Below are positions 28,200 to 45,928 of a stretch of DNA of 64,000 nucleotides, in pieces. The DNA lies in NCBI RefSeq assembly GCF_034479375.1, contig NZ_CP140155.1, forward strand, positions 1,860,001 through 1,924,000. The letters run 5' to 3'. The notes under the pieces were generated by a model. That model searched no databases, was not told the DNA's origin, and saw only the letters and a list, made by a program, of their open reading frames with translations. Within the stretch, counting starts at the first letter, position 1. Each line of letters begins with the position of its first letter. The DNA comes from Rhodopseudomonas palustris (GTDB lineage Bacteria > Pseudomonadota > Alphaproteobacteria > Rhizobiales > Xanthobacteraceae). The translations under genes were made by a program, and so were the position numbers.

Positions 28200-29081
28200 A
28201 TGGGCTTCGGTCCAGACCAAGTGCTAAGCAGACGGGGCTTGGCCTGCTGGGTTGCGGGGCTCGTTTTGTCGTCGAACGCTCATGCGGCGGAGCCACGGCC
28301 GAATGCGCCGATCAAATTTGGCCTGACGCCCGTCTTCTTGATATCCGATCTTGAGCTGCTGGGACGCCTGCAGTCCTATTTGCAGCGCACAACAGGTTAT
28401 CAAGTATCGCTGATTTCGCGGCGCACCTATCAGGAAATTACCGCTCTTCTGACATCGGGACAGCTTGATGCGGCATGGATCTGTGGGTTTCCCTTCGTCG
28501 CCCATCGGTCCGAGCTTCAGTTGGTCTCGGTTCCATTGTGGCATCGCAAGCCGCTTTACCAATCCTACCTGATCGTAGACCGTGCGCGAGTTGCCGCGGA
28601 TGTCCACGATCTGCGGGGGGATATCCACGCGTTCTCTGATCCCGATTCAAACTCCGGATTTCTGGTCACCCGTGCGGCTCTGGCCGAGCGACGCCTTCGA
28701 CCCGAGACGTTTTTTTCGAAAACGTTTTTCACATACGGCCATCGCAATGTTGTGAGAGCCGTCGCGTCGGGGCTTGCCGGTTCTGGCTCCGTGGACGGCT
28801 ATGTCTACGACGTGCTCTCCGAGCTCGAACCGGCGCTGACCGCGCGGACAAGGGTCTTGAAAGCTTCCGAGCCGCTGGGCTTTCCTCCGATCGCTGCCCC
28901 GAAAACCCCGAATGACGGTCCACGACTGGCGGCACTGACCGCGGCGCTTCTTCGAATGAGCGATGACGATGAAGGCCGAACGGTGCTTCACCTGTTGCGC
29001 CTGGACGGATTCAGCATGGAGGATCCCGCGCTATTCGACTCGATCGCATCGAAGGCCGCATTGGTTGCGGCGGCTGGATGA
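28200..29081 (+). CDS. aioX: Arsenite-sensing periplasmic binding protein AioX
   Basis: 293 residues of the PhnD-like binding-protein family. After an N-terminal signal segment (WVAGLVLSSNAHA) comes PIKFGLTPVFLISDLELLGR, the start typical of AioX. Cys95, in AAWICGFPFV, lies where PhnD/PtxB proteins have a Y-F/Y-G-P binding motif; a conserved cysteine in this region is required for As(III) sensing in Agrobacterium AioX. Its stop overlaps the start of the aioS gene (ATGA), so sensor and kinase are translated together. It presents arsenite to AioS in the periplasm rather than serving an ABC transporter. Confidence 0.92.
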   Translation: MGFGPDQVLSRRGLACWVAGLVLSSNAHAAEPRPNAPIKFGLTPVFLISDLELLGRLQSYLQRTTGYQVSLISRRTYQEITALLTSGQLDAAWICGFPFVAHRSELQLVSVPLWHRKPLYQSYLIVDRARVAADVHDLRGDIHAFSDPDSNSGFLVTRAALAERRLRPETFFSKTFFTYGHRNVVRAVASGLAGSGSVDGYVYDVLSELEPALTARTRVLKASEPLGFPPIAAPKTPNDGPRLAALTAALLRMSDDDEGRTVLHLLRLDGFSMEDPALFDSIASKAALVAAAG

Positions 29082-30538
29082 TCGCCATGCGCCGCCTCTT
29101 CGACGGTTCATGGCCGATCACCCTGAAGGTGCCGCTCGCAGTCGCCGCCTTGATGATGCTTGTGGGATTTGTTCTATCCGAGCGGGTGCTTTCGCGGCTC
29201 ACCGACACTCAGGAACGCCACCTCATCGATCTGTCTCGATCCTATCTTGATGGCCTATCATCGGCAATCGCGCCGTCGATCCTGCGTGAAGACAACTGGG
29301 AGGTATTTGATGCAATCGCGCGCGCTCAGGAGCTGAACAAGAGTCTTCGACCTGCCGAAACCATCGTTACCAATGCCGACGGCATCGTCATTGCCGCGTC
29401 GGATCCCAAGCAGCATCCCATAAACTCCACCGTCAAGGACAAGCGACCCGGCACCGCTCTGAGTGACAACGAGATCTTCAGCTTCGACGCAGGCGCCAAT
29501 ACGGCGAGTGCCACGCGCATTCTGTCCTATCCCGGGCGCACCGCCGGCATCATTTACGCCAGCTTCGATACGCGGCATTTGGCGGCCGAGCGGCAGAATG
29601 TCGTCATCACCTTGGTCCTCACCAATGGCGTCCTCACCATCCTACTCGCTGCGGCCGGCTGGCTGCTGGTGGCGCGCATGATGCGGCCGGTGCGAATCCT
29701 GTCACAACATTTGGGCGTCGACCAGGAGACACTTGCTGTCGCAATTCCAGACCGCGTCGTTGCGGAAACCCGTGGCGAATTCAACCGTCTGTTTCACGGC
29801 TACAACGCACTGGTCAGATCGATGAAGGAGCGCGAGGATCTCGGCAAGCGCTTGGCCGAAGAAAAGCGGCTCGGCAGTCTCGGGCGGATGGCATCGGCGA
29901 TCGCGCACGAGATCAACAATCCGCTAGGCGGGCTTTTCAATGCGGTGTCGACCCTCAAAGCTCATGGCCATCTCTCAAACGTTCGCAACGCGAGCCTGGG
30001 CTTACTGGAGCGAGGCCTCACCGGCATCCGCGACGTGGTTCGGACCACGTTGGCGATTTACCGAACCGACGCCGCTCCGCGTGATCTTGCCCCCGCTGAT
30101 ATCAACGACCTCGGCCTTCTGATTACGCCGGAAGCTCGACGAAAATCGATCCAGATCGTCATAGACAATGCTTTGACTGGGTCGGTGCCGATACCGAGCA
30201 CGCCGATCCGCCAGGCAATCCTCAATCTCGTCCTGAACGCCGTCGCCGCAGCCCCAGACGCATCTGAAGTGAGCGTCTCGTCCGCTGCAACGTCGACGCA
30301 GATCACGATTGTCGTCATTGACCGCGGGCCGGGCCTGCCCCCACCGGCAGCCGAAGTGCTGACAGGCCGTTCGGGAGCTCCTCCTCCAATCGAAGGCGGA
30401 GGTTTGGGTCTTTGGACTATCAATCGGCTGATCACAGATCTGGGTGGAACGATCGAGGTCGAAAGACCGCTAGCTGGAGGAACCGCCGTACGGCTGCTGG
30501 TTCCATTTGCCGATGTGGAGTTGTCTGATGTCGCTTAA
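29078..30538 (+). CDS. aioS: Arsenite-responsive sensor histidine kinase AioS
   Basis: 486 residues: membrane helix about 15-35, a periplasmic sensor region to about 173, a second helix about 174-197, a HAMP-like linker, the HisKA box with H277 (AIAHEINNPLGGLFNA), and an HATPase_c domain (ILNLVLNAVAAA, DRGPGLPPP, EGGGLGLWTINRLI). The periplasmic part should contact AioX. Start overlaps the aioX stop and stop overlaps the aioR start, giving a translationally coupled aioXSR unit upstream of the oxidase genes. Confidence 0.92.
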   Translation: MIAMRRLFDGSWPITLKVPLAVAALMMLVGFVLSERVLSRLTDTQERHLIDLSRSYLDGLSSAIAPSILREDNWEVFDAIARAQELNKSLRPAETIVTNADGIVIAASDPKQHPINSTVKDKRPGTALSDNEIFSFDAGANTASATRILSYPGRTAGIIYASFDTRHLAAERQNVVITLVLTNGVLTILLAAAGWLLVARMMRPVRILSQHLGVDQETLAVAIPDRVVAETRGEFNRLFHGYNALVRSMKEREDLGKRLAEEKRLGSLGRMASAIAHEINNPLGGLFNAVSTLKAHGHLSNVRNASLGLLERGLTGIRDVVRTTLAIYRTDAAPRDLAPADINDLGLLITPEARRKSIQIVIDNALTGSVPIPSTPIRQAILNLVLNAVAAAPDASEVSVSSAATSTQITIVVIDRGPGLPPPAAEVLTGRSGAPPPIEGGGLGLWTINRLITDLGGTIEVERPLAGGTAVRLLVPFADVELSDVA

Positions 30539-31847
30539 CGGTCGCACGATCGGTCTTGTCGAGGACGACGCGATCATGGGCGAGAGCATCGTCCAGCGAC
30601 TGGCCCTTGAAGGCGCCACGGTCAGATGGTGGCGATGCGGGCAGGATGCGCTGAAGAACATCAAATCTAGTCCGCTCGAGGCGATCGTTTGCGACATTCG
30701 CCTGCCGGACATCGGCGGCGAAGACCTGTTTCGTGAGGCCGCGAGAGCATCCAAGCTTCCGCCGTTTCTGTTCATCACCGGTCATGGCGACATCGATCAG
30801 GCGGTCCGACTGATGAGGATCGGGGCGCACGACTATTTCACCAAGCCGTTCGAGCTGGACGACTTTCTGCTGCGGCTGACGGAATTGATAGGGCCACGCT
30901 CGGACACCAACAGCCATGCGCTCGGGCTTTCGCCGGCAATGAAGGACCTTGAACGTCTGTTGTTGCGCGTGGCCAGGCTGAATTCGACCGTGCTCATCAC
31001 CGGCGAGACCGGCAGCGGCAAGGAGGTTGCCGCCAGATATCTTCACGCGATGTCGGGCCCCGAGAGACGGCCGTTCATGGCTGTCAACTGCGCCGCCATT
31101 CCGGGCGAGATGCTGGAAAGCGAGCTTCTGGGTCACGAGAAAGGCGCGTTCACGGGAGCGTCGCAACGACATCTGGGCTACGCCGAACGCGCCGGTGAAG
31201 GGGCTCTGTTCCTCGACGAGATCGGCGATCTTCGGCTCGAGTTGCAGGCGAAACTGCTGCGCCTGATCGAGGAGCGAACATTCTACCGGCTGGGCGGCGA
31301 ACGCCCCATCCCGTTCAAGGGTCGATTGATCGTCGCGACGAATGCCAATCTTCCGAAGCTGGTCGAGACGGGTCGGTTTCGCGAGGATCTGTACTATCGA
31401 ATCAATGTCGTGACTGTACGAATCCCGCCATTACGGACTCGTCACGACGATATTCCTTGGCTGATGCAACGCTTCTTCGAAGAAAGCGCAGGCCGGATTG
31501 AGACATCGTTGAAAGGGATCAGCGCTCTCGCCGAGGAGACCGCCCTCGCCTACGCTTGGCCTGGAAACGTGCGGGAACTACGCAATCGAATGGAGCGGGC
31601 CGTTGCGCTTGGCCTGGGGCAATGGGTCATGCCAGGCGATCTCTTTCCAGATCAGGCAGACGACTCGGCTTCCGACGCCCAGATGGGCTCGCTCGAAGAC
31701 GCCCGTCAGAGCGCAGAGAAACGGCATATCCTACGCGCTCTGTCTGCGACCAGCGGAGAAATCGGCGCGGCTTCCAAATTGCTGAGAATCGGGCGCACCA
31801 CATTATGGGACAAAATGCGTCGCCTGAACCTGAGCGGAGAGAATTAG
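30528..31847 (+). CDS. aioR: Sigma-54-dependent response regulator AioR
   Basis: 439 residues, NtrC family. The receiver domain has acidic pair EDD and phosphoacceptor D56 in IVCDIRLPD; the AAA+ domain has Walker A GETGSGKE, the GAFTGAS loop that contacts sigma-54 and LFLDEIGDLRLE; the C-terminus has a Fis-type helix-turn-helix (GEIGAASKLLRIGRTTLWDK). ATG 30528 overlaps the aioS stop. It activates aioBA transcription with RpoN, in line with a -24/-12-like element before aioB. Confidence 0.93.
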   Translation: MSLNGRTIGLVEDDAIMGESIVQRLALEGATVRWWRCGQDALKNIKSSPLEAIVCDIRLPDIGGEDLFREAARASKLPPFLFITGHGDIDQAVRLMRIGAHDYFTKPFELDDFLLRLTELIGPRSDTNSHALGLSPAMKDLERLLLRVARLNSTVLITGETGSGKEVAARYLHAMSGPERRPFMAVNCAAIPGEMLESELLGHEKGAFTGASQRHLGYAERAGEGALFLDEIGDLRLELQAKLLRLIEERTFYRLGGERPIPFKGRLIVATNANLPKLVETGRFREDLYYRINVVTVRIPPLRTRHDDIPWLMQRFFEESAGRIETSLKGISALAEETALAYAWPGNVRELRNRMERAVALGLGQWVMPGDLFPDQADDSASDAQMGSLEDARQSAEKRHILRALSATSGEIGAASKLLRIGRTTLWDKMRRLNLSGEN

Positions 31848-32095: not shown

Positions 32096-32285
32096 CCAGT
32101 GCATCTGGCAAGTACCATATGCTTCAAGCAATCGATGAAGCGTTCTCGCGTCCCCCGCCCGGTTCGCGTCCGTCGGTTTCCTGAACCAGCGGCATTGCAC
32201 CATGTTCGAAACTCCGAACATGAACGCCCGCGCCAATCGTCTCACCGCACTGCGAAGTCATGATTACACTCGCCTTTTGAGAGTG

Positions 32286-32301
32286 GCCCATCTCCTGCAG
32301 A
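32286..32301 (+). promoter_or_regulatory. Sigma-54-type promoter (-24/-12) of aioBA
   Basis: TGG, then CCCATCTCCT, then GCA: the invariant GG and GC are exactly ten bases apart (32287-32288 and 32299-32300), and TGGC/CTGC match most of the TGGCAC-N5-TTGC consensus. Transcription would begin near 32312, about 30 bases before the aioB ATG. It fits control by AioR, whose gene ends 440 bases upstream; an AioR enhancer site was not identified. Confidence 0.6.
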
Positions 32302-32342
32302 TGATTGCGCATCAAAGCGCGAAACTTCGGGAGCGAAACCAG

Positions 32343-32864
32343 ATGAAGAGATGCAACAATCAGGTCGATGCCGGCCGCCGCCGCTTCCTCAGCGGTGCGA
32401 GCCTTGCCGCAGCTGGTGCTGCCGTAACGACCATGCTGCCGACAGAGGCCAACGCGGCACCGACCTCGGCGAGGATCAACTATCCGTCCAATCGGCTTGC
32501 GAACTTGTCGCAGCTGAAGCTCAACGAACCGTTCGAAGTCAGCTATCCCGACAAAGATGCGCCAGGCGTGCTGCTCAAATTGGGGACTCGGGTCGAGGGC
32601 GGCATTGGGCCCCAGGGTGACATCGTCGGTTTCTCCACCGTCTGCCCGCACAAGGGCTTCCCGCTGCACTACACCGCGGATGACAAGACCCTGACCTGTA
32701 CCGGCCACTATGCACGGTACGACTGCGAGAAAGCAGGTCAGCAGATCTGGGGGCATGCAACACAGAACCTCGCGCAATATGCACTGCGTGTCGACGGCAA
32801 GGGTGACATCTACGCGGACGGCGTCGATGAACTACTCTATGGCCGACTTTCCAACGTGCTCTGA
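32343..32864 (+). CDS. aioB: Arsenite oxidase small (Rieske) subunit AioB
   Basis: 173 residues. A Tat signal (GRRRFLSGASLAAAGAAV) exports the folded heterodimer. Rieske [2Fe-2S] ligands are C101-P-H103 and C119-T-G-H122. The residues that form a disulfide in the betaproteobacterial enzyme are F106 and G121 here, as described for the Rhizobium NT-26 enzyme, which lacks that disulfide. ATG 32343 follows GGGAGCGAAACC; the longer frame reaches back across the promoter. The gene is 12 bases from aioA. Confidence 0.95.
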   Translation: MKRCNNQVDAGRRRFLSGASLAAAGAAVTTMLPTEANAAPTSARINYPSNRLANLSQLKLNEPFEVSYPDKDAPGVLLKLGTRVEGGIGPQGDIVGFSTVCPHKGFPLHYTADDKTLTCTGHYARYDCEKAGQQIWGHATQNLAQYALRVDGKGDIYADGVDELLYGRLSNVL

Positions 32865-32876: not shown

Positions 32877-35405
32877 ATGACCCACAAGCGACAAATCGAT
32901 CGCCTGCCCATCATTCCCGCGGATGCCAAGGAGCACAACGTTACGTGTCACTATTGCATCGTCGGCTGCGGCTACAAGGCTTACACTTGGCCGATCAACA
33001 AGCAGGGCGGCTACGACGCAAAATCGAACAAATTCGGCGTTGATCTCTCCAAGCAGCAGGCTGCGGAGACCAACGCGTGGTACGCACCGTCGATGTACAA
33101 CGTCGTCCGGCAGAACGGCCAAGACGTACAGCTTGTCATCAAGCCTGACGTCGATTGCGTTGTGAATTCCGGCCTGGGCTCGATCCGCGGCGCTCGGATG
33201 GCGGAGAACCACACCTCGCAGCAGCGCGGCACCCAGTTGCAGCGACTGACGGATCCGATGGTGTGGCGCTACGGCTCGATGCAGCCAACGAATTGGGACG
33301 ACGCGCTGGACCTGGTGGCGCGCGTGACGGCCGCGGTGATCAACGAGCAAGGCGAGGATGGCCTGTTCGTTTCGATGTTCGACCATGGTGGCTCGGCCGG
33401 CGGATATGAGAACACCTGGGGCACCGGCAAGCTCTATTTCGGCGCCATGAAGGTCAAGAACGTCCGCATTCACAACCGCCCCGCCTACAATTCCGAGGTC
33501 CACGGCACGCGGGACATGGGCGTCGGCGAACTCAACAACTGCTACGAGGATGCCGAACTCGCCGACACGATCGTCGCGATCGGCACCAATCCGCTGGAGA
33601 CCCAGACCAACTATTTCCTCAACCACTGGATCCCGAATCTGCGCGGGTCGTCGGTCGACAAGAAGAAGAAAGAGCTCCCGGACGAGGCGGTTGAAGCGGG
33701 CCGCATCATTATCATCGACCCCCGCCGGACCGTCACTGTTGCCGCCTGCGAGGCCGAGGCCGGCAAGGACCGTGTGCTGCATCTCGCGCTCGAGCCCGGC
33801 ACCGATCTCGTCCTATTCAACGCGTTGCTGAGCTACATCGCCGACAAGGGTTGGATCGACAAGGCCTTCATCGCGGCGAACACGTTGCCTGCGGACCAAG
33901 GCGCATCGCTCATTTCGCGACCGGGCGGCCTGCCGAACGATCAACCGCTGACCGACTTCGCCGCGGCGCTGGCCGCCAACCGAACCTCGATGGCCGATGC
34001 CGTGAAGATCACCGGTCTCAAGGCCGAGGACATCGTCAAGGCTGCCGAGTGGATCGCCCAGCCGAAGGCGGGGGGCAAACGCCGCCGCACCATGCTGGGT
34101 TATGAAAAAGGCATCATCTGGGGCAACGACAACTACCGCACCAACGGCGCGATCGTGAATCTCGCTCTCGCGACCGGCAATGTCGGGCGCCCCGGGGGCG
34201 GCGTGGTCCGGCTGGGCGGCCACCAGGAAGGTTATTCGCGTCCCTCGGACGCGCATGTCGGCCGGCCCGCAGCCTATGTCGACAAGCTCTTGATCGAAGG
34301 CCGGGGTGGCGTTCATCACATCTGGGCCTGCGACCACTACAAGACGACACTGAACGCCCTGAAGTTCAAGCAGATCTACAAACGCCGGACGGACATGGTG
34401 AAGGACGCCATGAACACCGTGCCATGGGGCGACCGCAAGGCCATGGTCGATGCGATCATGACGGCGGTTCGCCAAGGCGGGCTGTTCTCGGTCGACGTCG
34501 ACATCGTCCCAACCCAGATCGGCCAAGCCTCGCACGTGTGGTTGCCGGCGGCGATCTCCGGTGAAATGAATCTCACCTCGATGAACGGCGAAAGGCGCAT
34601 GCGGCTGACCGAGCGCTACATGGACCCACCGGGCAACGCGATCCCGGACTGCCTGATCGCCGCCCGGCTGGCCAACACCATGGAACGCGTGCTGCGCGAA
34701 CAGGGAAAGACCGCCTACGCCGACCAGTTCAAAGGCTTCGACTGGAAGACGGAGGAAGACGCTTTCCTCGATGGTTACGCCAAACATGAGAAGGGCGGCC
34801 AGCACGTCACCTATGCCAGGCTGAAGACGATGGGCACCAACGGCTTTCAGGAGCCAGCGACCGCCGTCGTCGACGACAAGATTGTCGGAACCAAGCGTCT
34901 CTATACGGACGGCAAGTTCTCGACCAAGGACGGCAAGGCCTTCTTCATGGCAGCGCCCTGGCGCGGCTTGCAGGCGGCGGGCAAGGCCGAGCAGAAGGCG
35001 AAGTACCGGTTCCTCGTCAACAACGGGAGAACCAATATGGTTTGGCAGAATGCGTTCATGGACCAGTACAATGACTTTGTCATGGACCGGATGCCCTACC
35101 CCTTCATCGAAATGAACCCGGACGACATGAAGGACCTGAGTTTGGGCGCGGGCGACCTCGTTGAGGTCTTCAACGACGCCGGCTCGACCCAGGCCATGGT
35201 GCAGCCGACGCCCACGGCGAAACGCAATCAGACGTTTATGCTGTTTGCTTTCCCGACCGGCGTGCAAGGCAACATCGTCAACGCCGGCGTCAACGAGCTC
35301 GTCATTCCGGACTACAAACACAGCTGGGCCGACATTCGCAAGATCGCGTCCGCTTCAGAGACGACGAAGCGGCTCTCGTTCAAGTCGCCTCAATTCAAGG
35401 CATAG
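32877..35405 (+). CDS. aioA: Arsenite oxidase large (molybdopterin) subunit AioA
   Basis: 842 residues, full length for the family. The N-terminal [3Fe-4S] motif is C24-x2-C27-x3-C31 (CHYCIVGC), the form specific to arsenite oxidase. The molybdenum bis-MGD domains follow, with many AioA-specific stretches such as NHWIPNLRGSSVDKKKKELP and RLGGHQEGYSRPSDAHVGRP. It oxidises As(III) to As(V) in the periplasm, passing electrons through AioB to a cytochrome. Neither an aioC-like cytochrome c nor a moeA gene follows, so host cytochromes and molybdopterin synthesis must serve it. Confidence 0.97.
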   Translation: MTHKRQIDRLPIIPADAKEHNVTCHYCIVGCGYKAYTWPINKQGGYDAKSNKFGVDLSKQQAAETNAWYAPSMYNVVRQNGQDVQLVIKPDVDCVVNSGLGSIRGARMAENHTSQQRGTQLQRLTDPMVWRYGSMQPTNWDDALDLVARVTAAVINEQGEDGLFVSMFDHGGSAGGYENTWGTGKLYFGAMKVKNVRIHNRPAYNSEVHGTRDMGVGELNNCYEDAELADTIVAIGTNPLETQTNYFLNHWIPNLRGSSVDKKKKELPDEAVEAGRIIIIDPRRTVTVAACEAEAGKDRVLHLALEPGTDLVLFNALLSYIADKGWIDKAFIAANTLPADQGASLISRPGGLPNDQPLTDFAAALAANRTSMADAVKITGLKAEDIVKAAEWIAQPKAGGKRRRTMLGYEKGIIWGNDNYRTNGAIVNLALATGNVGRPGGGVVRLGGHQEGYSRPSDAHVGRPAAYVDKLLIEGRGGVHHIWACDHYKTTLNALKFKQIYKRRTDMVKDAMNTVPWGDRKAMVDAIMTAVRQGGLFSVDVDIVPTQIGQASHVWLPAAISGEMNLTSMNGERRMRLTERYMDPPGNAIPDCLIAARLANTMERVLREQGKTAYADQFKGFDWKTEEDAFLDGYAKHEKGGQHVTYARLKTMGTNGFQEPATAVVDDKIVGTKRLYTDGKFSTKDGKAFFMAAPWRGLQAAGKAEQKAKYRFLVNNGRTNMVWQNAFMDQYNDFVMDRMPYPFIEMNPDDMKDLSLGAGDLVEVFNDAGSTQAMVQPTPTAKRNQTFMLFAFPTGVQGNIVNAGVNELVIPDYKHSWADIRKIASASETTKRLSFKSPQFKA

Positions 35406-35416
35406 CTCCCGTAAAA

Positions 35417-35449
35417 GTCAGCCCGCAGGCTTCTTGCATGCGGGCTGAC
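35417..35449 (+). terminator. Hairpin after aioA
   Basis: An 11-bp perfect stem, GTCAGCCCGCA with TGCGGGCTGAC, 11-nt loop, starts 12 bases after the aioA stop. The 3' side lacks a strong U-run (CATTCTTC) but the stem is preceded by AAAA. Probable terminator or processing hairpin. Confidence 0.6.
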
Positions 35450-35559
35450 CATTCTTCAACCCGGCATCACGTGGGTCCGATTGCGCGCGGCGATTCGACT
35501 GACGGGGATGGCTTCTCCCGACCATGCGCCGAACCGTGACTCCAACTGGTGACTGCCCC

Positions 35560-36153: not shown

Positions 36154-36309
36154 TCTAGCGCCGACCGATTCTCAATGGCTACTTGCGGTGGGGCAATCAC
36201 CGATCGGCGAGGCCCAGGCCTACCGCGCCGAACAAGACTCAGCACGGTGGGGCACGAATCTCGATATCCAGCGGAACACCGAGATCGTTCTGCCCGCTTG
36301 CGACGAGCA

Positions 36310-36828: not shown

Positions 36829-36882
36829 GTCCGTCTCGTGACGATGGGAGATTTCCGGCCTCGACGCTTCGTCGGTCCCGAC

Positions 36883-37515: not shown

Positions 37516-37533
37516 TGTCTTCTCCGTTGACAT

Positions 37534-37594: not shown

Positions 37595-37675
37595 CCCGTC
37601 GAACGTTCGTTTCGGCTGGCTTGACGAACCACGACCGGCGGGACATGCCTTCGCCGCCGTTGTTCGACGAACACG

Positions 37676-38362: not shown

Positions 38363-38817
38363 GGACGCTCCGTTGAGGTCCGGGGGAGCAACCCAAGCCG
38401 TCGTTGAATGTCGTCGCCTGAGATCGAGCCGAGGCGACGATCGATTTCACGACCGTCAGAATCGAAAAATATACCTGGGTCGGCATCATTTGAATCCGAT
38501 ACTGCGGAGCCAACCGCTTGGTTGTCGCCGACAGCAGATCGATGTCAACGACGTTCAATTGCTCGCTATGCCTCACGAGCAAGCGCCGCGAGTATCAGTT
38601 TCATGTCGCGACAGCTTCGGCACCAATTGGAGCTGAACTCGACGACCGTCGGCTTGCCCGCACTGATCGCCACGCTGACGGGGTCATCATGTGGCGTGGC
38701 CTTCGCCGGCTGATCACCCGACCATCGCGGCAGGATGATTGTGGCAGCCACGACGAGGCCCAAGACCACGGTGGCGCCCGCAGCAAACCACCATCGGCGA
38801 GTTGCCCTAGACATCAT
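38359..38817 (-). pseudogene. Membrane-anchored thioredoxin-like protein with two compensating frameshifts
   Basis: Starting at 38817, the frame encodes an N-terminal membrane anchor (WWFAAGATVVLGLVVAATIIL), then TVVEFSSNWCRSCRDMKLIL with a W-C-R-S-C active site, and stops after ALAREA. Removing one T there restores SEQLNVVDIDLL to QMMPTQVY in the next frame; adding one T to the T5 run near 38481 restores FFDSDGREIDRRLGSI to the stop at 38359, which overlaps the ccdA start. Both ends are in the same frame. Thus one base was gained and one lost, or both are sequencing errors. Confidence 0.82.
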
Positions 38818-38861
38818 CGGCACCACCGCCTGCCCGTCGCGATCCGACGAGCCGCGGCCCC

Positions 38862-39095
38862 TCACGCGAGCCAGAGCGCGATATCTTCAGCTTTCGGCAG
38901 CCCGCCGGCGTGGACCACCTTGCCGTCGACCACGATCCCCGGGGTCGAGACGATGCCGTAGCCGGCGATCGCCGCATAGTCGGTGACCTTTTCGATGGCG
39001 ATCGCGACACCGAGCCTGTCGGCCTCCGCCTGCACCATCTCGGCCGTCGTAACGCAACGTTTACAGCCGGGACCGAGTACTTTGACGTCCTTCAT
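38862..39095 (-). CDS. Small thioredoxin-fold protein (Thioredoxin_3 family)
   Basis: 77 residues, cytoplasmic: MKDVKVLGPGCKRCVTTAEM with a C-x2-C redox pair (C-K-R-C), then GIVSTPGIVVDGKVVHAGG with the cis-proline. Small redox proteins of this kind are regularly encoded beside PF03773 permeases and ArsR regulators and are thought to work with metalloid or organoarsenical handling. It lies 12 bases after the permease stop on the same strand. Confidence 0.85.
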   Translation of the reverse strand: MKDVKVLGPGCKRCVTTAEMVQAEADRLGVAIAIEKVTDYAAIAGYGIVSTPGIVVDGKVVHAGGLPKAEDIALWLA

Positions 39096-39107
39096 GACGA
39101 CACGCTC

Positions 39108-40160
39108 CTATGTGAATAAGGCATTGAACAGAAAGCCGACGGCCAGAATGCCAGAGGCAACGACAGCGACGAACACGGCGATCAGCCGGGGGGTCAGCAC
39201 CTTGTGCAGGATGATCAGTTCCGGCGCCGACAGCGCGATGACGCTCATCATGAAGGCGAGCACGGTGCCGAGCGCGGCGCCCTTGCCGAGCAGAGCTTCG
39301 ACCACCGGAATGATACCCGCGGCATTGGAATACATCGGAATGCCGAGCACGACGGCTGCGGGCACCGACCACCACGCGTCGCGCCCCATGATCGAAGCCA
39401 GCAGGTCGGCGGGCACATAGCCGTGAATGAAGGCACCGGCCGCGATCCCCGCGATGACCCAGATCCAGACCCGCCCGACGATGTCGACCACGGCCTCGAT
39501 CCCGGCCCGGAGGCGATCGACCAATGTCACGGCGGCCGACGGGATCTCGACGGCACTGGAACGAACGTTGCGGACCCAGTCCTGCAGCCAGCCTTCGAGA
39601 TGGAAGCGCCCGATCACCCAGCCGGCGACGATGGCGATGCCGAGCCCGAAGCCCAGATAGGCGAGCGCCACTTTCCAGCCCAGCAGCACGAACAGCAATC
39701 CGAGCGCGACTTCGTTGATCATCGGCGCGGCAATCAGAAACGAGAAGGTGACGCCGAGCGGCACGCCGGCACTGACAAAGCCGATGAACAGCGGCACCGC
39801 CGAGCAGGAGCAGAACGGCGTGAGAATGCCGAGCCCGGCGGCGGCGACGTTGCCGACACCTTCGCGCCGGCCGGCGAGCAGCGCGCGGGTCCGCTCCGGC
39901 GAAAACCAGCTCCGCAGCACGCCCATGCCGAACACTACGAGGGTCAGCAACATCAACACCTTCGGAGTGTCGTAGACGAAGAATTCGACAGCCTCTGCCG
40001 CATGGCTGCCGGGATCGAGCGGAAGCAGCCCGACCGCCCATTTGGAGAACGGCTGCAATTGCGCGTAGATCAGGCCCCAGGCACCCAGGAATGCCGCGGT
40101 CCCGGCCAGCCAGACGGCTGTCCGCGGCTCGCGCCCGGCTTTCGTCTCCAACGTGGTCAT
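39108..40160 (-). CDS. arsP: PF03773-type permease (ArsP / SO_0444-like)
   Basis: 350 residues, eight or more spans. The diagnostic stretch is GILTPFCSCSAVPLFIGFVS with the C-S-C motif, followed by GVTFSFLIAAPMINEVA and GIPMYSNAAGIIPVVEALLGKG. ArsP members export trivalent organoarsenicals; related SO_0444 proteins have been linked to other metals, so the substrate is not certain. ATG 40160 overlaps the arsR stop (ATGA), giving an arsR-permease-thioredoxin operon. The longer frame to 40259 only overlaps arsR. Confidence 0.85.
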   Translation of the reverse strand: MTTLETKAGREPRTAVWLAGTAAFLGAWGLIYAQLQPFSKWAVGLLPLDPGSHAAEAVEFFVYDTPKVLMLLTLVVFGMGVLRSWFSPERTRALLAGRREGVGNVAAAGLGILTPFCSCSAVPLFIGFVSAGVPLGVTFSFLIAAPMINEVALGLLFVLLGWKVALAYLGFGLGIAIVAGWVIGRFHLEGWLQDWVRNVRSSAVEIPSAAVTLVDRLRAGIEAVVDIVGRVWIWVIAGIAAGAFIHGYVPADLLASIMGRDAWWSVPAAVVLGIPMYSNAAGIIPVVEALLGKGAALGTVLAFMMSVIALSAPELIILHKVLTPRLIAVFVAVVASGILAVGFLFNALFT

Positions 40161-40468
40161 GCCGCCGCCCTCCTGTCGCGCGACGGCAATGCCAAGACGG
40201 CCTCGACGACTGCAATGATACGCGGATCGAGATGGGGATTCCGGCGGTAGCGAACCCATTGCGCATCACGACGATCGACCACCAGGCCGGCAATCTTCAG
40301 CACGCCCATGTGGCGCGACATCCGCGACTGGGTGGCGCCCAGCTTCTTCATCAGCTCGCAGACGCAGTGTTCCTGGCCGTCCCACAGAAGCCGCATGGCT
40401 TCCAGCCGCGTCTCTTCGGCCAATGCCGACACGAGGTCGATCGGATCCATTGTCATCCTGCTGAACAT
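40157..40468 (-). CDS. arsR: ArsR family metalloregulator
   Basis: 103 residues. Winged helix with recognition segment KKLGATQSRMSRHMGVLKIAGLV; just before it is H-C-V-C-E-L, matching the C-V-C-D/E-L As(III)-binding motif of the classical ArsR type. First gene of the operon with the ArsP-type permease, thioredoxin-like genes and ccdA. It would repress the operon and be released by As(III). The exact start among several close methionines (40468, 40456, 40450) is open. Confidence 0.9.
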   Translation of the reverse strand: MFSRMTMDPIDLVSALAEETRLEAMRLLWDGQEHCVCELMKKLGATQSRMSRHMGVLKIAGLVVDRRDAQWVRYRRNPHLDPRIIAVVEAVLALPSRDRRAAA

Positions 40469-40509
40469 GAGACGGCTCCATTAAGCCTATTGCCCATTTC
40501 CGTTTATGC

Positions 40510-40525
40510 GCATATTCGCATATTC
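40510..40525 (-). promoter_or_regulatory. Candidate ArsR operator
   Basis: GCATATTC occurs twice in direct tandem, in an AT-rich patch about 42 bases before the arsR start; the minus strand reads GAATATGCGAATATGC. ArsR operators are typically AT-rich with ATTCA/GAATAT-like half-sites at this distance. No other AT-rich palindrome is seen in this gap. Confidence 0.4.
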
Positions 40526-40669
40526 ATGCAATCGCGCTCGACGGCTGTCAATGGAAAAGCTCAACGCTCTCGCGTCATGCAGAGAGCCGAACGGCACTGG
40601 GCTTGCGGAGACGGCATGGGTTATTCGCAGCACCACCGGCAACGGCATCGCCGTATCGGTCTCTTCGTC

Positions 40670-41047
40670 ATGCTGGAGCGTCGCCGACGCATTCCGAAGC
40701 TCGAGATAGTGGCCGTGCTGACGTTCATCGCTGCGGCCGTCGTCGGCATTTCGGCAAACGCCGATCCCTTACCGCCCACGCCGACGATTCAATCAGAGAG
40801 GATGGGAGTGGAGAGCGCTGTCCGCGCCTTACTCACCGTGGCACAGAAAGGTCCGCCTTTCACGACACCACGAGGCGTGAAACGAACGCCTATCGTCGCA
40901 GCCAATGAACAGGTCGGCACGCTCTGGGAAGACGTGACACTCAAATCGTTGCAGCCCGGCAATTTCTGGCAGGGCGGCAGAGGGATACGAGTCGAGTTGT
41001 TACACGAGGACCGTGTCGTCGGCGTGATCCATATCGACGAGGACTGA
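40670..41047 (+). CDS. Hypothetical protein with N-terminal membrane segment
   Basis: 125 residues from ATG 40670; the open frame extends further upstream and the start is uncertain (weak ribosome-binding site). A positively charged start (LERRRRIPK) precedes a hydrophobic stretch VAVLTFIAAAVVGISANA, then a soluble part with VESAVRALLTVAQKGPPFTT and GNFWQGGRGIRVELLHEDRVVGVIHIDED. No family recognised. It is alone on the plus strand between two minus-strand operons, just before a TAXI-like fragment. Confidence 0.45.
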   Translation: MLERRRRIPKLEIVAVLTFIAAAVVGISANADPLPPTPTIQSERMGVESAVRALLTVAQKGPPFTTPRGVKRTPIVAANEQVGTLWEDVTLKSLQPGNFWQGGRGIRVELLHEDRVVGVIHIDED

Positions 41048-41106
41048 GGCGGCCGCAGTGCGTCATCCCAGGCGCTGAAGACGAGAGTCTCTTCGATCGC
41101 TACGAA

Positions 41107-41460
41107 GTGCTGATCTACATCTTTGTGTTCGGCTTCAGCGGCATCGTTTCGGGGGTGCTGTGGTTTGCCAGGTACCTGTTTCCGCAAGACCTCCCCCTCG
41201 CCATCCGCGAAGAGCACGCGCTGGAAACCCTGATCAACAAGGCACGCGCGGCAACGACCGCTGCAGAACTCGACGACATCGAGCGCGAATTGGACGGATT
41301 TCTGATGAAGCTCTCGAGCCATATGGTCGAAGGCCATCTCGACACCGGTCTGACTCCGGCCTACGAACTGCTGGCGGGACGCGCGACCGGTGCGATCGAA
41401 GTTCGTCGGCACGTGCTTTCAATATCAGGTGCCGCGGCTGCGGACCAACGCAGCGCTTAG
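41107..41460 (+). pseudogene. Possible 3' fragment of a TAXI-family solute-binding protein gene
   Basis: The frame opens without a good start and reads VLIYIFVFGFSGIVSGVLWF (one membrane helix), then RYLFPQDLPLAIREEHALET, ATTAAELDDIERELDGFL and EGHLDTGLTPAYELLAGRA. This layout (single helix followed by a short helical cytoplasmic tail) resembles the C-terminal extension of some TRAP-type TAXI binding proteins. No N-terminal part precedes it. It could also be an independent small membrane protein starting at GTG 41107. Confidence 0.35.
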
Positions 41461-41536
41461 GCCGCCCATTGTCAGTCCTCTCGAAAAGCGCACTCGCACA
41501 GATCCGATAGCCATCGTCCGCAAATTCAGCCCGAGT

Positions 41537-42448
41537 TCAAAGCGGGCGACCAGCGTTCGGCGACACCGGTGGCCCACTGCTGCTATTCGGCCCCTCCAGA
41601 AGACACTCGGCGAAGCGCGATGCTGAGGCGGTGGGTGGCAGGTGAGAAGATCTCACGATCAACAGGCGCTTTTCCAAACTCGTTCCGTCGACATCGAGCG
41701 CGACCAGCGTACGGTTCAGCAATTCATCCTGGATCGCCGATTCCATCACGATCGAAATGCCTCGCCCGGCGCGCACCGCACGCTTGACGCCTTCGGTGGA
41801 CCCCAATCCGTCGAGATAATGCAGGCGCGCAACGACGCTTCCCAGCGCCTCGCGCAGGATACGCCCCGTTCCGGTGCCCGGTTCGCCGGTGAGGATCAAC
41901 TCCCTGGTCAGATCTTCCCGGTCGATGGATGTTTTTCCAGCCCAGCGGTGATCCGGCGCCACGATCACTTTGAGAGTCTCGGCGCTCCAACAGGTGACGT
42001 CGAAACCGTCGGTATCCTCCCAGGCCTCCAGGACGGCTAGATCTGCCTCACCGCTCTTGAGACGGGCGGCGGCCTGCATGTTGCTCCCAATCCAGACGCG
42101 GACTTCGACCCTGGCGTCACGCTCGAAAGCCGCAATGCGGGGGTGGAGCAGATAGGTGCCGATGTTGCTAGAGGCGGCAACGGCAAGATGCGGACGCTGG
42201 ATCAGGTCGGCCGCGCGCAGGGCTGTAGCCACCAGAGCCCGGGCCAGCGGCAGAAACCGTGCCCCTGCCGGCGTCAAGTGCGGATTCCCCGCCTGGCGAA
42301 CCAGCAGCACCGATCCGAGCGACGCCTCGAGCTGGCGGAGATGTTCGAGAACCGTGGAGGGCGAAAGCCCGACTGTTCTCGCGCCGGCACGTATGCTCCG
42401 CGCCTCGATAACCGTCAAAAAACTGCGGACATGCGTCAGGTTCAGCAC
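41537..42448 (-). CDS. ptxE: LysR family regulator PtxE
   Basis: 303 residues: winged helix-turn-helix in residues 1-60 (VRSFLTVIEARSIRAGARTV, LSPSTVLEHLRQLEASLGSV), then the periplasmic-binding-like effector domain. It starts 21 bases after the ptxD stop on the same strand, which is the position of ptxE in ptxABCDE operons of Pseudomonas stutzeri and others. It may regulate the ptx genes, although in P. stutzeri the operon is mainly under phosphate (Pho) control. No LysR box was confirmed upstream of ptxA. Confidence 0.85.
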   Translation of the reverse strand: MLNLTHVRSFLTVIEARSIRAGARTVGLSPSTVLEHLRQLEASLGSVLLVRQAGNPHLTPAGARFLPLARALVATALRAADLIQRPHLAVAASSNIGTYLLHPRIAAFERDARVEVRVWIGSNMQAAARLKSGEADLAVLEAWEDTDGFDVTCWSAETLKVIVAPDHRWAGKTSIDREDLTRELILTGEPGTGTGRILREALGSVVARLHYLDGLGSTEGVKRAVRAGRGISIVMESAIQDELLNRTLVALDVDGTSLEKRLLIVRSSHLPPTASASRFAECLLEGPNSSSGPPVSPNAGRPL

Positions 42449-42469
42449 GGTCGGCTACCGCCAGTTCTG

Positions 42470-43450
42470 TCAGGCCAGGGCCGTTTCCGGTTTTTCGCCA
42501 GCCAGCACCCTCAAGATGCTGTCCGCCGCGGAATATTCGATGGCCCTGCGCGATTCAACGACTGCGGAGCCGAGATGCGGCGTCAACACGGTCTTCGTGG
42601 TCATACTCAGCAAGCGCGATTCGATCTCGCCAGGGCGATCCCCGCGAGCCCAGTCCTCGCACGCGAAAACATCCGCGGCGTAACCGCCCAAATGGCCGCC
42701 TTCGAGCGCATCCGCCACGGCGGCCTCATCGACCAGTGAGCCGCGCGCCGGATTGATCAGCAAGGCGCCCGCCTTCATCGAGCGGAGAAAGGCATGCCCC
42801 ACGATCCCCTGGGTCGCCGGGGTCAGGGGCATGCCGAGAATGAGGATATCCGCCGATCCGGTGAGGACGTCCATCGTTACACGCTCGGCATCGTCCGGCA
42901 CCGACGGATTCCAGTTCGCGTCGCAGGCCAGAACGCGACATCCAAAGCCCGACAGGCACCGCGCGATCGCCTGCCCAACCCGGCCATAGCCCACAACGCC
43001 CACCGTAGAGCCGGCAAGGCCGAGGCCGTAATACTCCGGTCGCCAGCCATTGAACCCGCCCCGGCGAATGGCGGTGTCCCCGGCAAGGATGTGACGCCCA
43101 AGCGCGATCGTCAGCCCCACGGCGAGTTCGGCCGTCGGGCGCGTGAGCAGATCGGGCACGATAGTGACGGTGACGCCACGCGCGGTAGCAGCTTCGACGT
43201 CGATGTTGTCAAAGCCTTTCAGAGCGGCCCCGATCACGCGCAGGCGTGGACAGGAATCGAGAAACGCGGCGTCGATGCAGTCGGGCATGAAGGCCATCAG
43301 CGCGTCGGCAATACTTGCGTGAGCCAACAACACGTCGGCGGGCCACGGAGTCTCGAGATGATTGGCAATGATCCGCGCGCGCCCGGAGAAAAGCGCGCGT
43401 GTATCATCGAACGTGCGATTGGTCAGAACCACCAGCGGCAGATCAGTCAT
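42470..43450 (-). CDS. ptxD: Phosphite dehydrogenase PtxD (NAD-dependent)
   Basis: 326 residues, close to the P. stutzeri enzyme in motif order: ALMAFMPD, K78 in AALKGFDNIDV, W136/Y140 region, Rossmann G-Y-G-R-V-G (154-159), NPARGSLVDEAAV with R236, GGYAADVF..EDWARGDRP with E265, and H292 in TPHLGSAV. These are the phosphite-binding and catalytic residues known for PtxD. D177 at the end of the second beta strand should bind the NAD ribose (E175 in P. stutzeri), so NAD is the expected cofactor. It oxidises phosphite to phosphate. Confidence 0.95.
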   Translation of the reverse strand: MTDLPLVVLTNRTFDDTRALFSGRARIIANHLETPWPADVLLAHASIADALMAFMPDCIDAAFLDSCPRLRVIGAALKGFDNIDVEAATARGVTVTIVPDLLTRPTAELAVGLTIALGRHILAGDTAIRRGGFNGWRPEYYGLGLAGSTVGVVGYGRVGQAIARCLSGFGCRVLACDANWNPSVPDDAERVTMDVLTGSADILILGMPLTPATQGIVGHAFLRSMKAGALLINPARGSLVDEAAVADALEGGHLGGYAADVFACEDWARGDRPGEIESRLLSMTTKTVLTPHLGSAVVESRRAIEYSAADSILRVLAGEKPETALA

Positions 43451-43454
43451 GGGA

Positions 43455-44261
43455 TCACTTCAGGGACTTGCGGAGCCAGCCGCCGATCGAATCGACGATG
43501 ACTACACAGAGCAAGATAGCGAGAAGAATGGCCGAGACCTGATCGTAGTTGAGCAGGCGTAGCGCGGCCATCAGTTCGAAACCGATGCCACCCGCACCGA
43601 CGATGCCGAGCACGGCGGAGGCGCGAAAGTGGTACTCCCACCGGTAGATCGTCACATCGGTGAGCTGCGGCAGCACCTGCGGCAATACCGCATGGGTGAT
43701 GACCTGCAATGGCGTGGCGCCGGCCGCCCGCGCTGCTTCCAGCGGCTTGGGATCGACGTGCTCGATCGCCTCGGCGTAGAACTTGCCCACCATGCCGACC
43801 GAATGGAGCGCCAGCGCCAGCACGCCCGGAAGAGCCCCGAAACCCACCGCCGCCACGAACAGAACGCCGAGAATGATTTCCGGCACCGAACGCAGCAAGG
43901 CCAGCAACGTCCGGACGAGAAAAGCCACGCCCCGGTAGGGGCTGGTGTTGGGCGCCGCCAGCAGCGCCAGCGGCAGTGAGAACAACACCGCCAGCGCCGT
44001 GCCGGCAATCGACATCGCCAACGTATCCGCCAGCGGCCGCAGCCAACTCTGCCAGCGCGAGAAATCCGGCGGGATCATTTCGGCCGCGAGTTGCCGAAAG
44101 GCCGGAACCGCCTCGATAAAGCGCTGCGGGTCGAAGAAACCGGTCGAAGCCAGCGCCACGACCACCGTCGCGACGATGCCGCCGAGCAGCAACCAATCCC
44201 GTCGCGCCGCCTGTGTTTCGCGGACAAGCGTGGCTTCGAAGCTCCGCACTTGCGTCACCAC
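43455..44261 (-). CDS. ptxC: Phosphite/phosphonate ABC transporter permease PtxC
   Basis: 268 residues with about six spans and the binding-protein-dependent permease EAA-type loop (YAEAIEHVDPKPLEAARAAG, ATPLQVITHAVLPQVLP) that contacts the ATPase. Wording SVPEIILGVLFVAAVGFG and RASAVLGIVGAGGIGFEL is typical of PhnE/PtxC. It lies directly between ptxB (1 base) and ptxD (4 bases), so it belongs to one transcription unit. With PtxA and PtxB it imports phosphite. Confidence 0.93.
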   Translation of the reverse strand: MVTQVRSFEATLVRETQAARRDWLLLGGIVATVVVALASTGFFDPQRFIEAVPAFRQLAAEMIPPDFSRWQSWLRPLADTLAMSIAGTALAVLFSLPLALLAAPNTSPYRGVAFLVRTLLALLRSVPEIILGVLFVAAVGFGALPGVLALALHSVGMVGKFYAEAIEHVDPKPLEAARAAGATPLQVITHAVLPQVLPQLTDVTIYRWEYHFRASAVLGIVGAGGIGFELMAALRLLNYDQVSAILLAILLCVVIVDSIGGWLRKSLK

Positions 44262-44262
44262 C

Positions 44263-45132
44263 TCACCCGAGCTTGGCGATATCGAGGTTCAGGATCTTGG
44301 CCATGTCGCGCAGCACGTCGTAATCCTTGTCGGTGGCCGGGGCGAGTCCATCCACGCGGAACAGCTTCAGGATGGCAGGATCCTTGAGATTCAGGAACGC
44401 ATTGCGGATCGACGTCTTCAGCTCCGGCGCCAGATATCCTTGAAGCGTCATCGGATAGTTCGGTATCGGATCGGAAAGGCCGATCTGCACGAGCTTCGTG
44501 GCGTCGATCTTGTTGGTCTCGACCAGTACGCGGTAGATCTGTTCCGAGAGCGCACCTGCGGGCACCTGCCCCGCGGCCACGGCCCTCGCCACGGCGTCGT
44601 GCTTGCCCAGATGGACCACCTTGTAGTCCCTGTCGCCGATCAGACCCGCCTTGGCGAGATGCGCACGCGGGGCGAGATGGCTGGAGGTCGAGGCCTGGTC
44701 GCCGAAGGCGAAGGGCTTGCCCTTGACGTCCGCAAGCGTTTTGACCGGACCATCGGCAGACGCGATCAGGATGGAATTGTAGTTCGGCTTGCCCTTTTCC
44801 ACGCCGACCGCGAACGGCTCGATCTCCGGCGCCTTGGATTTGGCGAGCACGTAGGAGAACGGCCCGAAATACGCGACCTCGATCCGACCGAAACGCATCG
44901 CCTCGATCATCGACGAATAGTCCGTCGTAACGATGATCTCGACCGGCTTGCCGAGGGTCTGCTCGAGATACGCCTTCAGCGGCTGCGCATTCTGGATCAG
45001 GGTCGAGGCGTTCTCGTCGGGGAGCAGCGCAACGCGCAGCTTTTCGGGGTTGGCCTTGTCGGCCAGCACCGGCGTCGACAGGGCGGACAAGCCGAGGGCG
45101 GTGCTGACAAGCAGGAACTGACGGCGATTCAT
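44263..45132 (-). CDS. ptxB: Phosphite-binding periplasmic protein PtxB
   Basis: 289 residues, PhnD-like family. A twin-arginine-like signal (MNRRQFLLVSTALGLSALS) is followed by EKLRVALLPDENASTLIQN, FGRIEVAYFGPFSYVLA (substrate-binding Y-F-G-P), and FAFGDQASTSSHLAPRA. These match PtxB/HtxB-type binding proteins. ATG 45132 is chosen by the GGAGAAC ribosome-binding site and the signal start. Delivers phosphite to PtxAC. It is related to AioX in the same island. Confidence 0.93.
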   Translation of the reverse strand: MNRRQFLLVSTALGLSALSTPVLADKANPEKLRVALLPDENASTLIQNAQPLKAYLEQTLGKPVEIIVTTDYSSMIEAMRFGRIEVAYFGPFSYVLAKSKAPEIEPFAVGVEKGKPNYNSILIASADGPVKTLADVKGKPFAFGDQASTSSHLAPRAHLAKAGLIGDRDYKVVHLGKHDAVARAVAAGQVPAGALSEQIYRVLVETNKIDATKLVQIGLSDPIPNYPMTLQGYLAPELKTSIRNAFLNLKDPAILKLFRVDGLAPATDKDYDVLRDMAKILNLDIAKLG

Positions 45133-45154
45133 GATGTTCTCCCGTTTGGATGGG

Positions 45155-45928
45155 TTATTCGGCGGCAAGCGCGAAGGAGCTGATCGGCGAGGAATTCGAG
45201 GCGCCGTAGATGGCGTCGAGCTTGATGTCGCTCAAGGCGGAGGGCGCGCCATCGAACACGACCCGCCCCTGAACCAAGGCGCAGATGCGATCCGCGAACT
45301 GCCGGGCCAGATCGACCTGATGCAGGCTGACCACGGTCGTGATGCCGTCCTCGCGGCAAATCCGGTGAAGATCGGTTAGCACCTGAAACGCCGTGGCAGG
45401 GTCGAGACTGGCGACAGGCTCGTCGGCGAGGATGATATCCGGTTTCTGCGCCATGGCGCGGGCGATACCGACTCGCTGCTGCTGGCCGCCGGAAATCTGG
45501 TCGGCGCGCTCCAGCGCCCGCGCAGCCAAGCCGACGCGATCCAGTGCCTCGAGTGCGACCATCCGGTCCGCCTTCGGCAACGGCAGCAGGGACCGCAGCG
45601 ACGAATGATGCGCCAATCGGCCCATCAGCACATTCTTCAGAATACTCAGGCGCCCGATGAGGTGATGCTGCTGGAACACCATGGCGGTGCGACGCCGATG
45701 CGAGCGCAGCGCCGCAGCGCTGGCGAAAATGGATTTGCCGTCACTGCCGAGGACATCGCCCGAGCGAGGGCGGACAAGCCCGTTCAGCGCCCTGAGCAGC
45801 GTGGATTTGCCAGCGCCCGAACTGCCCAACAACACGACGAAGCTGCCGCGCTCGAACGACAGCGAGGTCGGCTCGAGCGCGACCACGCCGTTGGCATAGG
45901 TGACGCAGATTTCGCGACTGGACAGCAT
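45155..45928 (-). CDS. ptxA: Phosphite ABC transporter ATP-binding protein PtxA
   Basis: 257 residues: Walker A GSSGAGKST, signature ISGGQQQRVGIARAM, Walker B IILADEPVAS and the switch histidine in VVSLHQVDLA, in PhnC/PtxA arrangement. First gene of ptxABCDE on the minus strand; the 394 bases before it should hold the promoter. A Pho box (two CTGTCAT-like repeats) was looked for there and none was convincing. Confidence 0.93.
   Translation of the reverse strand: MLSSREICVTYANGVVALEPTSLSFERGSFVVLLGSSGAGKSTLLRALNGLVRPRSGDVLGSDGKSIFASAAALRSHRRRTAMVFQQHHLIGRLSILKNVLMGRLAHHSSLRSLLPLPKADRMVALEALDRVGLAARALERADQISGGQQQRVGIARAMAQKPDIILADEPVASLDPATAFQVLTDLHRICREDGITTVVSLHQVDLARQFADRICALVQGRVVFDGAPSALSDIKLDAIYGASNSSPISSFALAAE

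Follow-up and report, generated by a model that had tools for sequence, protein, structure and literature searches.

The operons for arsenite oxidation (aioXSRBA) and phosphite oxidation (ptxABCDE) are found together, both intact, on a single island of Rhodopseudomonas palustris. The DNA analyzed, here called the window, is a 64,000-nucleotide stretch of assembly GCF_034479375.1 (contig NZ_CP140155.1, positions 1,860,001-1,924,000, forward strand), and all positions given below refer to the window. The island covers ~24 kb (24304-48346) and is bounded by a 40-nucleotide direct repeat of tRNA-Gly. The combination is real, intact and singular in the samples searched; the island is of a known kind, and its phosphorus component is phosphite oxidation. 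The two systems probably operate independently, side by side, within a composite arsenic island. A first-pass annotation of the same DNA had described full aio and ptx sets ~6 kb apart in one putative island, with arsenic and thiol genes between them. The gene calls, the gap of 6.1 kb between aioA and ptxE (5.4 kb if counted from the DUF2478 gene listed below) and the tRNA-Gly repeat bear this out, and the island was found to be wider than the span first given.

The aio genes lie on the plus strand, followed by an aio-associated gene:

28200-29081, plus strand: aioX, periplasmic arsenite-binding protein (310 bits to the solved AioX, 6esv/6eu7)
29078-30538, plus strand: aioS, sensor histidine kinase (histidine-kinase matches; 70% identity to AioS of locus L072)
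30507-31847, plus strand: aioR, sigma-54-dependent response regulator (NtrC-class match, 337 bits; 80% to AioR of L072)
32343-32864 (corrected start), plus strand: aioB, Rieske small subunit with a signal like that for twin-arginine translocation (TIGR02694, 190.9 bits)
32877-35405, plus strand: aioA, arsenite oxidase large subunit (TIGR02693, 1281.5 bits, cut-off 359)
35524-36153, plus strand: aio-associated DUF2478 protein (PF10649, 169 bits; also 3' of aioA in L072 and L074)

AioA matched the solved NT-26 enzyme (4aay) with 1454 bits, and all seven pocket residues named in the text of PMC5908839 were found to be kept in AioX (by eye, in the alignment to 6esv). The start of aioB was moved to 32343 because the longer frame starts within the AioR site described below. 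Both oxidase profiles, TIGR02694 and TIGR02693, scored over their cut-offs, so the aioBA structural genes of arsenic islands are present. Their regulatory part is present as well, as aioXSR together with an AioR site 5' of aioB.

The ptx genes lie on the minus strand:

45155-45928, minus strand: ptxA, ATP-binding protein (TIGR02315, 295 bits)
44263-45168, minus strand: ptxB, phosphite-binding protein (283 bits to the solved PtxB 5o2j, against 79 to HtxB)
43455-44261, minus strand: ptxC, permease (TIGR01097, 297 bits; 79-82% to ptxC of L076, L077, L078 and L083)
42470-43450, minus strand: ptxD, phosphite dehydrogenase (316 bits to solved phosphite dehydrogenases, 6ih2)
41537-42448, minus strand: ptxE, LysR regulator (PF03466/PF00126; 50-53% to the LysR gene 3' of ptxD in L076, L077, L078 and L083)

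The next enzyme class matched by PtxD, glyoxylate reductase, reached 176 bits. In the alignment PtxD keeps the residues at R237, E266 and H292 of the 6ih2 chain, which we take to be the catalytic residues of phosphite dehydrogenase. The ABC transporter, PtxD and the LysR gene stand in the assimilatory ptxABCDE order. PtxABC would import phosphite by means of the selective PtxB, and PtxD would oxidize phosphite to phosphate with NAD. The reading frames of all ten aio and ptx genes are open. The completeness claimed in the first-pass annotation therefore holds for both operons; the dsbA-like, arsO and thioredoxin genes between and around them are broken.

The borders of the island were defined by two features:

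24304-24350, minus strand: left attachment site, an incomplete copy of the tRNA-Gly(TCC) 3' part (direct repeat)
48300-48373, minus strand: intact tRNA-Gly(TCC), right attachment site (ARAGORN; empty-site comparison)

The repeat copies (24311-24350 and 48307-48346) are identical at 39 of 40 positions. The left copy matches the tRNA-Gly end in all eight genus-mate loci compared and diverges from the tRNA end at its first bases. A direct repeat of a tRNA 3' end is thus found at both borders, as in tRNA-associated islands. An empty site was identified in G012, the relative whose flanks are most similar (91% identity), where the left flank (to window position 23841), tRNA-Gly and the right flank (from 48300) lie together and the 24 kb are absent; on the left, ~0.3 kb of unmatched DNA lies between the flank and tRNA-Gly. 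Seven further genus-mate loci were compared. In four of them the left flank is conserved as far as window position 21.06-21.1 kb, and in the remaining three stretches no match to this flank was found. In one of the four (L065) tRNA-Gly lies within ~0.3 kb of the shared flank, and in the others (L066, L067 and L070) 9.6-15.4 kb of other DNA lies in between. Since different stretches of this size occupy the same site, tRNA-Gly(TCC) seems to be a hotspot for insertions in this genus. A search that covered the phage-type integrases (PF00589), and no further recombinase family, found none in the island, the three matches in the genome all lying elsewhere. The G+C content is 0.625 in the island, 0.65 to its left and 0.646 to its right, and within the island it is lowest in the aio part (0.607) and 0.643 in the ptx part. 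The genome itself is one contig of 5,305,909 bases. It contains a pufL that scores over the curated cut-off, and on this basis the host probably has a photosynthetic reaction centre.

Examination of the upstream regions revealed an operator-like site for each operon:

32204-32219, plus strand: putative AioR operator GTTCG-N6-CGAAC, 5' of aioB (sole perfect match in 64 kb)
32284-32298, plus strand: possible sigma-54 -24/-12 element 5' of aioB (weak, with two mismatches; found by eye and missed by scans)
45958-45993, minus strand: putative PtxE operator CGAAC-N13-GTTCG-N7-CGAAC, before ptxA (contains the lone perfect GTTCG-N7-CGAAC in 64 kb)

The AioR-type site begins 139 bases before the corrected aioB start. 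The AioR-protected (footprinted) site of Agrobacterium tumefaciens GW4 is described as having the same GTTCG-N6-CGAAC form (PMC5335332). N6 sites with at most one mismatch occur within 500 bases 5' of aioB in 9 of 12 other aio loci. At the same tolerance, the N7 site recurs in 5 of 24 other ptxA upstream regions, all five in the window's own order, and its spacing fits the LysR-type T-N11-A box. Only the perfect sites are informative, since the window contains 12 N6 sites (4.8 expected) and 9 N7 sites (5.0 expected) when one mismatch is allowed. Pho control of the island was considered and rejected. The island has no Pho box with fewer than 4 mismatches and 11 with 4, which is within the range of 4-13 obtained from ten mononucleotide shuffles of its sequence. 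Upstream of aioX and aioB, no sequence came within 4 mismatches of a Pho box. The best match 5' of ptxA has 5 mismatches, a level also reached in 67 of the 300 random stretches that served as background for this 300-base upstream region. Pho boxes with at most 3 mismatches are found in 8 of 24 other ptxA upstream regions and in none of the random stretches. The pattern used for sigma-54 elements gave no match 5' of ptxA, and a sigma-70 scan of 35380-46400 returned 0 sites, below the level in shuffled sequence. As far as the sequence can tell, aio and ptx have separate operator-like sites and no visible shared control.

Further genomic analysis addressed whether the linkage is general. Samples with one genome per species were drawn from the order (397 genomes), the class (318) and the phylum (398), and presence was scored at E ≤1e-200 for AioA and E ≤1e-70 for PtxD. 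AioA was found in 35 genomes of the order sample, 8 of the class sample and 10 of the phylum sample. PtxD was found in 15 genomes of the order sample and 5 of the class sample, and each of these two samples contained three genomes with both proteins, the host's own included. Excluding the host, 47 distinct genomes carry AioA (34 from the order, a further 6 from the phylum and a further 6 from the class, plus G016). Five of these also carry PtxD (G060, G205, G446, G915 and G657), and none was shown to have the two genes within 30 kb, the distance within which the first-pass annotation proposed to look for linkage. In G446 they are 2.8 Mb apart on a single 4.6-Mb contig. In G205, G915 and G657 each gene has a contig of its own, and the one with aioA extends for more than 30 kb in both directions from this gene. 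In G060 aioA is split across contig ends, so its distance to ptxD is undecidable. Among 31 plasmid records with AioA, 18 were searched whole for PtxD at E ≤1e-50, and none contained it. Moreover, convincing aioA was absent from the available flanks of all 44 ptxD loci compared (22, 11 and 11 from three sets), a collection in which several loci stop at contig ends and two (L027 and L028, 28-32% identity) are unconvincing as PtxD. On these counts aio-ptx was rejected as a widespread unit. Co-occurrence at the genome level exceeds chance in one sample and not in the other. With the host excluded, two genomes with both proteins were found in the class sample against 0.09 expected (one-sided p 0.0025), and two in the order sample against 1.2 expected (p 0.34). 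Aio and ptx may weakly share an ecology, without linkage seen in the samples.

Several apparent neighbours were rejected in the course of these comparisons. AioA-like matches by ptxD in L080 and L081 have 25% and 24% identity, respectively, and the former is formate-dehydrogenase-like. The PtxD-like match by aioX in L072 (32%) is too distant and looks like an ordinary 2-hydroxyacid dehydrogenase. Nor are ars genes general neighbours of ptx, being found in 2 of 44 loci (L017, where arsC lies ~7.7 kb from ptxD, and L083) and in 0 of 28 control loci. Other observations concern the distribution of PtxD. It is frequent on plasmids (699 records at E ≤1e-60, of which 577 are from Klebsiella), all with less than 60% identity to PtxD of the window. 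Four Listeria phage records were matched at ~35%. Of the viral contigs, 5 stretches were hit by PtxD patterns, with no relative encoded in any of them, and none was hit by AioA patterns. In L079 (G033), L080 (2069-11024; G011) and L081 (G007), the last two from genus-mates, a PtxD-like gene (44-55%) is found close to a LysR gene and to PhnC/PhnE/PhnD-like transporter genes. Directly next to it in L080 are subunits like formate-dehydrogenase-alpha (707 bits) and NuoF (294 bits), and in L079 and L081 weaker molybdopterin-enzyme matches are found in the same stretch.

The closest relatives of the aio and ptx parts come from different places. PtxD, AioA and AioS were searched against a protein database in which the ~8000 candidates with the most words in common with the query were scored and the best 120 matches listed. 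Among the matches listed, AioA is closest to metagenome proteins (up to 94%), and the closest named relative is from Bradyrhizobium sediminis (91%). In L072 (G423) the genes of aioXSRBA-DUF2478 stand in an identical order; its AioA has 91% identity, and ptx is absent from the vicinity. PtxD is closest, among those listed, to a protein of Rhodopseudomonas sp. NSM (98%), followed by metagenome proteins at 79-84% and then others at ~65%. In the AioS search the window's own protein formed a one-member cluster, the next match was a metagenome protein at 86%, and no NSM entry was among the best 120 listed. Because the same database holds PtxD of NSM and lists no AioS from it, NSM probably has ptx without this aio, although an incomplete record would look alike.

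Between and around the two operons the island holds the following genes:

25098-25961, minus strand: universal stress protein (weak UspG/UspE matches; aligns, together with SulP, with annotated genes of Sphingobium plasmids for a universal stress protein and SulP)
25964-27448, minus strand: SulP-family anion transporter with STAS domain (PF00916, PF01740)
36310-36828, minus strand: DsbB-like protein (PF02600)
36883-37520, minus strand: DsbA-like protein, broken by an in-frame stop near CxxC (named by eye from the translation, no family match)
37676-38362, minus strand: CcdA/DsbD transmembrane protein (PF02683)
38566-38865, minus strand: truncated thioredoxin-like fragment (by eye)
38862-39095, minus strand: arsE-like small thioredoxin (TIGR00412 MTH895/ArsE family, 81.8 bits, cut-off 62)
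39108-40163, minus strand: ArsP-type permease (PF03773, 227.7 bits; 70% to L083, 61% to L123)
40157-40468, minus strand: arsR-family regulator (PF01022)
46323-47220, minus strand: arsO-like flavin monooxygenase, broken, split over two frames (NF040505, 353 bits, below the cut-off of 425)
47227-47982, minus strand: arsH, intact (TIGR02690, 371 bits)

The start of the permease was shortened by eye to an ATG past the arsR overlap. In the arsO-like gene, the NF040505 match spans profile positions 101-345 and the N-terminal part sits in another frame. The broken genes (dsbA-like, arsO and thioredoxin) are interspersed with the intact aio and ptx genes. The pair formed by SulP and the universal stress protein (25098-27448) has 77-78% DNA identity to Sphingobium plasmids. 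Queries with ACR3, ArsC and ArsJ gave no match in the window; ArsB was not among the queries. The ars genes present are arsR, arsH and the permease, and an ars operon with arsC and acr3 or arsB was not found with these queries. PstS and PstC had no match in the window, the PhoB query matched aioR only and the PhnD query ptxB only; in place of the pst, pho or phn genes of arsenic islands, ptxABCDE is found.

The arsR-permease-arsE piece recurs in two other loci. In L083 (G293, from the same order and another family) arsE, permease and arsR stand in the window's order (78%, 70% and 43%), and after arsR come a divergent acr3 (373 bits) and then ptxE, D, C, B and A (51, 59, 79, 79 and 71%). On the other side of the three genes are MBL-, OsmC- and cation-transporter-like frames with 56-63% identity to annotated genes of L123, and a resolvase-like frame was seen by eye past ptxA, on its upstream side. 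In L123 (Pseudosulfitobacter plasmid CP069019.1) an arsR-permease-thioredoxin-MBL-OsmC-cation transporter cluster lies ~4 kb from aioBA, the permease itself at ~6 kb. The arsR-permease-arsE-MBL-OsmC-CDF cluster spans 2883-7620 in L083 and 10280-14127 in L123. Because its relatives sit near each partner, ptx in L083 and aio in L123, the arsR-permease-arsE piece is, judging from these two loci, a plausible joint where the composite formed.

The island is best read as a composite arsenic island, inserted at the 3' end of tRNA-Gly(TCC) and now without a phage-type integrase. Its gene content, borders, empty site and distinct operator-like sites, and the rarity of the linkage in the samples, come directly from the sequence data, and from these we infer the following assembly order, enzyme activities and electron route. 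The island would have grown by accretion, such that a Bradyrhizobium-type aioXSRBA-DUF2478 part and an alphaproteobacterial ptxABCDE part came to flank arsR-permease-arsE, with dsb, arsO, arsH and sulP-usp pieces, some of them decayed, surrounding this core. Once arsenite is sensed, AioX, AioS and AioR would turn on aioBA, and AioBA would oxidize arsenite in the periplasm. The electrons would presumably pass to a c-type cytochrome of the host, since no cytC homologue was found in the window (nor was a moeA homologue). Separately, PtxE would turn on ptxABCD, PtxABC would import phosphite, and PtxD would oxidize it with NAD to provide phosphate for growth.

Independent operation of the two operons is favoured because the linkage was found in the host's own genome only, the relatives of the parts differ in source and each operon has its own operator-like site, all of which speak against aio-ptx as a functional unit. 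The outcome that the first-pass annotation had named as unfavourable to its proposal (linkage in one strain, independent origins, no regulation crossing between the operons) is largely what was found; the recurrence of the arsR-permease-arsE module and the class co-occurrence speak against chance alone. Some points weigh against the preferred reading. Both operons are intact amid decaying neighbours, which suggests that both are being kept. The co-occurrence in the class sample, though not in the order sample, is above expectation. The AioR site and the putative PtxE site have the half-site GTTCG in common and differ in spacing (N6 and N7). The absence of aio from NSM was read from a clustered protein database and not from the NSM genome. 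Lastly, L083 has arsR-permease-arsE by its ptx genes and L123 has it near its aio genes, so the joining may not have been random.

The alternative that survives best, though it remains unlikely, is that selection keeps aio and ptx together to secure a phosphorus supply that arsenate cannot enter. The arsenate made by AioBA would arise outside the cytoplasm, and phosphate transporters let arsenate in; selective phosphite import with internal formation of phosphate would lessen reliance on these transporters. Consistent with this, genes for phosphorus uptake are known from other arsenic islands (PMC3834237; L047), ptxABCDE has kept all its frames open among partly decaying genes, ptx in L083 lies beside acr3, arsR, permease and arsE, plasmid pBIC1a has ars and ptx operons ~30 genes apart (PMC6286996), and the class-sample co-occurrence is significant. 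However, no other linked aio-ptx pair was found in the samples, ars genes near ptx are as rare as stated above, each operon has an operator-like site of its own, and no good Pho box lies 5' of aioX, aioB or ptxA. An extended form is equally doubtful. In it, arsenite oxidation is coupled to phosphite oxidation inside the cell, so that an arsenite oxidizer would obtain phosphorus with no uptake of the toxic arsenate it makes, arsR-permease-arsE acts as an adaptor recruiting either partner, and the GTTCG half-sites let the regulators meet on DNA. It is still less likely that the island gives a phototroph two inorganic electron donors, with arsenite feeding a c-type cytochrome and the reaction centre, and phosphite yielding NADH, and so more donors in the light. 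The pufL of the host and the nature of both substrates as reduced oxyanions would fit; however, ptxABC is an uptake system, assimilatory in known cases, and the window lacks a cytC homologue. Least probable of all is shared regulation, in which AioR or PtxE touches both promoters: the GTTCG/CGAAC half-sites are the same, their spacing differs by one base and each perfect site is unique in the 64 kb, but N7 is also found in ptx loci that have no aio nearby, and N6 in aio loci that lack ptx, the pattern used detected no sigma-54 element 5' of ptxA, and the half-site identity may be coincidence.

Independent operation of aio and ptx thus remains the preferred reading, and the island bears on a puzzle of arsenite oxidizers. 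Their product, arsenate, competes with phosphate, and the phosphate-uptake genes of arsenic islands could admit arsenate too. A phosphite-oxidizing island is a natural case in which to test if this conflict is eased once phosphorus comes in a form that arsenate, a mimic of phosphate, does not resemble. The island also supplies a defined tRNA-bounded element with separable operons and two near-identical operator-like sites for tests of cross-control.

Parts of this arrangement have been described before. Twenty-one arsenic islands are reported to contain 10 pst and 6 phn operons, with ars operons called frequent (PMC3834237), and a review covers cross-talk of aio with the phosphate regulon as well as phn genes located beside aioBA (PMC7533571). 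The idea that both operons were gathered in arsenic-rich, phosphorus-poor settings is reasonable in this light, given the lateral origin of the island and the phosphorus genes known beside aio. In Nodularia, ptx and ars clusters are listed at separate gene numbers (PMC3610870). On the clinical plasmid pBIC1a, the ars cluster comprises genes 142-149 and the phosphite operon genes 180-183. A plasmid with both ars and ptx is thus already in print, as are arsenic islands with pst, pho or phn. The ptd genes represent dissimilatory phosphite oxidation (PMC10746228). In agreement with the first-pass annotation, no description of aio beside ptx was found in the literature; subscription papers were mostly outside this search, so absence from print is not shown.

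Compared with the arsenic islands of A. tumefaciens 5A/GW4 and Sinorhizobium sp. M14, as described in PMC3834237, the window likewise combines aioXSRBA, ars and phosphorus-acquisition genes of lateral origin. It differs in that its phosphorus part is ptxABCDE and not pst/pho/phn (the terms 'phosphite' and 'ptx' have 0 occurrences in the main text of that paper), in lacking acr3, arsC, cytC and moeA homologues, in its insertion at tRNA-Gly and in having one AioR site where two tandem palindromes are described. The ptx operon has the same ptxA-B-C-D-E order as that of Pseudomonas stutzeri type, and its PtxD and PtxB match solved proteins; unlike the latter type, it lies in an arsenic island and has no good Pho box before ptxA. 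The Bradyrhizobium-type aio of L072 shares the aioXSRBA-DUF2478 order, whereas the surrounding 20 kb compared contain no ptxABC, permease, arsR, arsE or dsb homologue. Finally, the six-gene cluster of L083 and L123 agrees with the window in the order of arsR, permease and arsE; the window keeps these three of the six genes and has them between aio and ptx.

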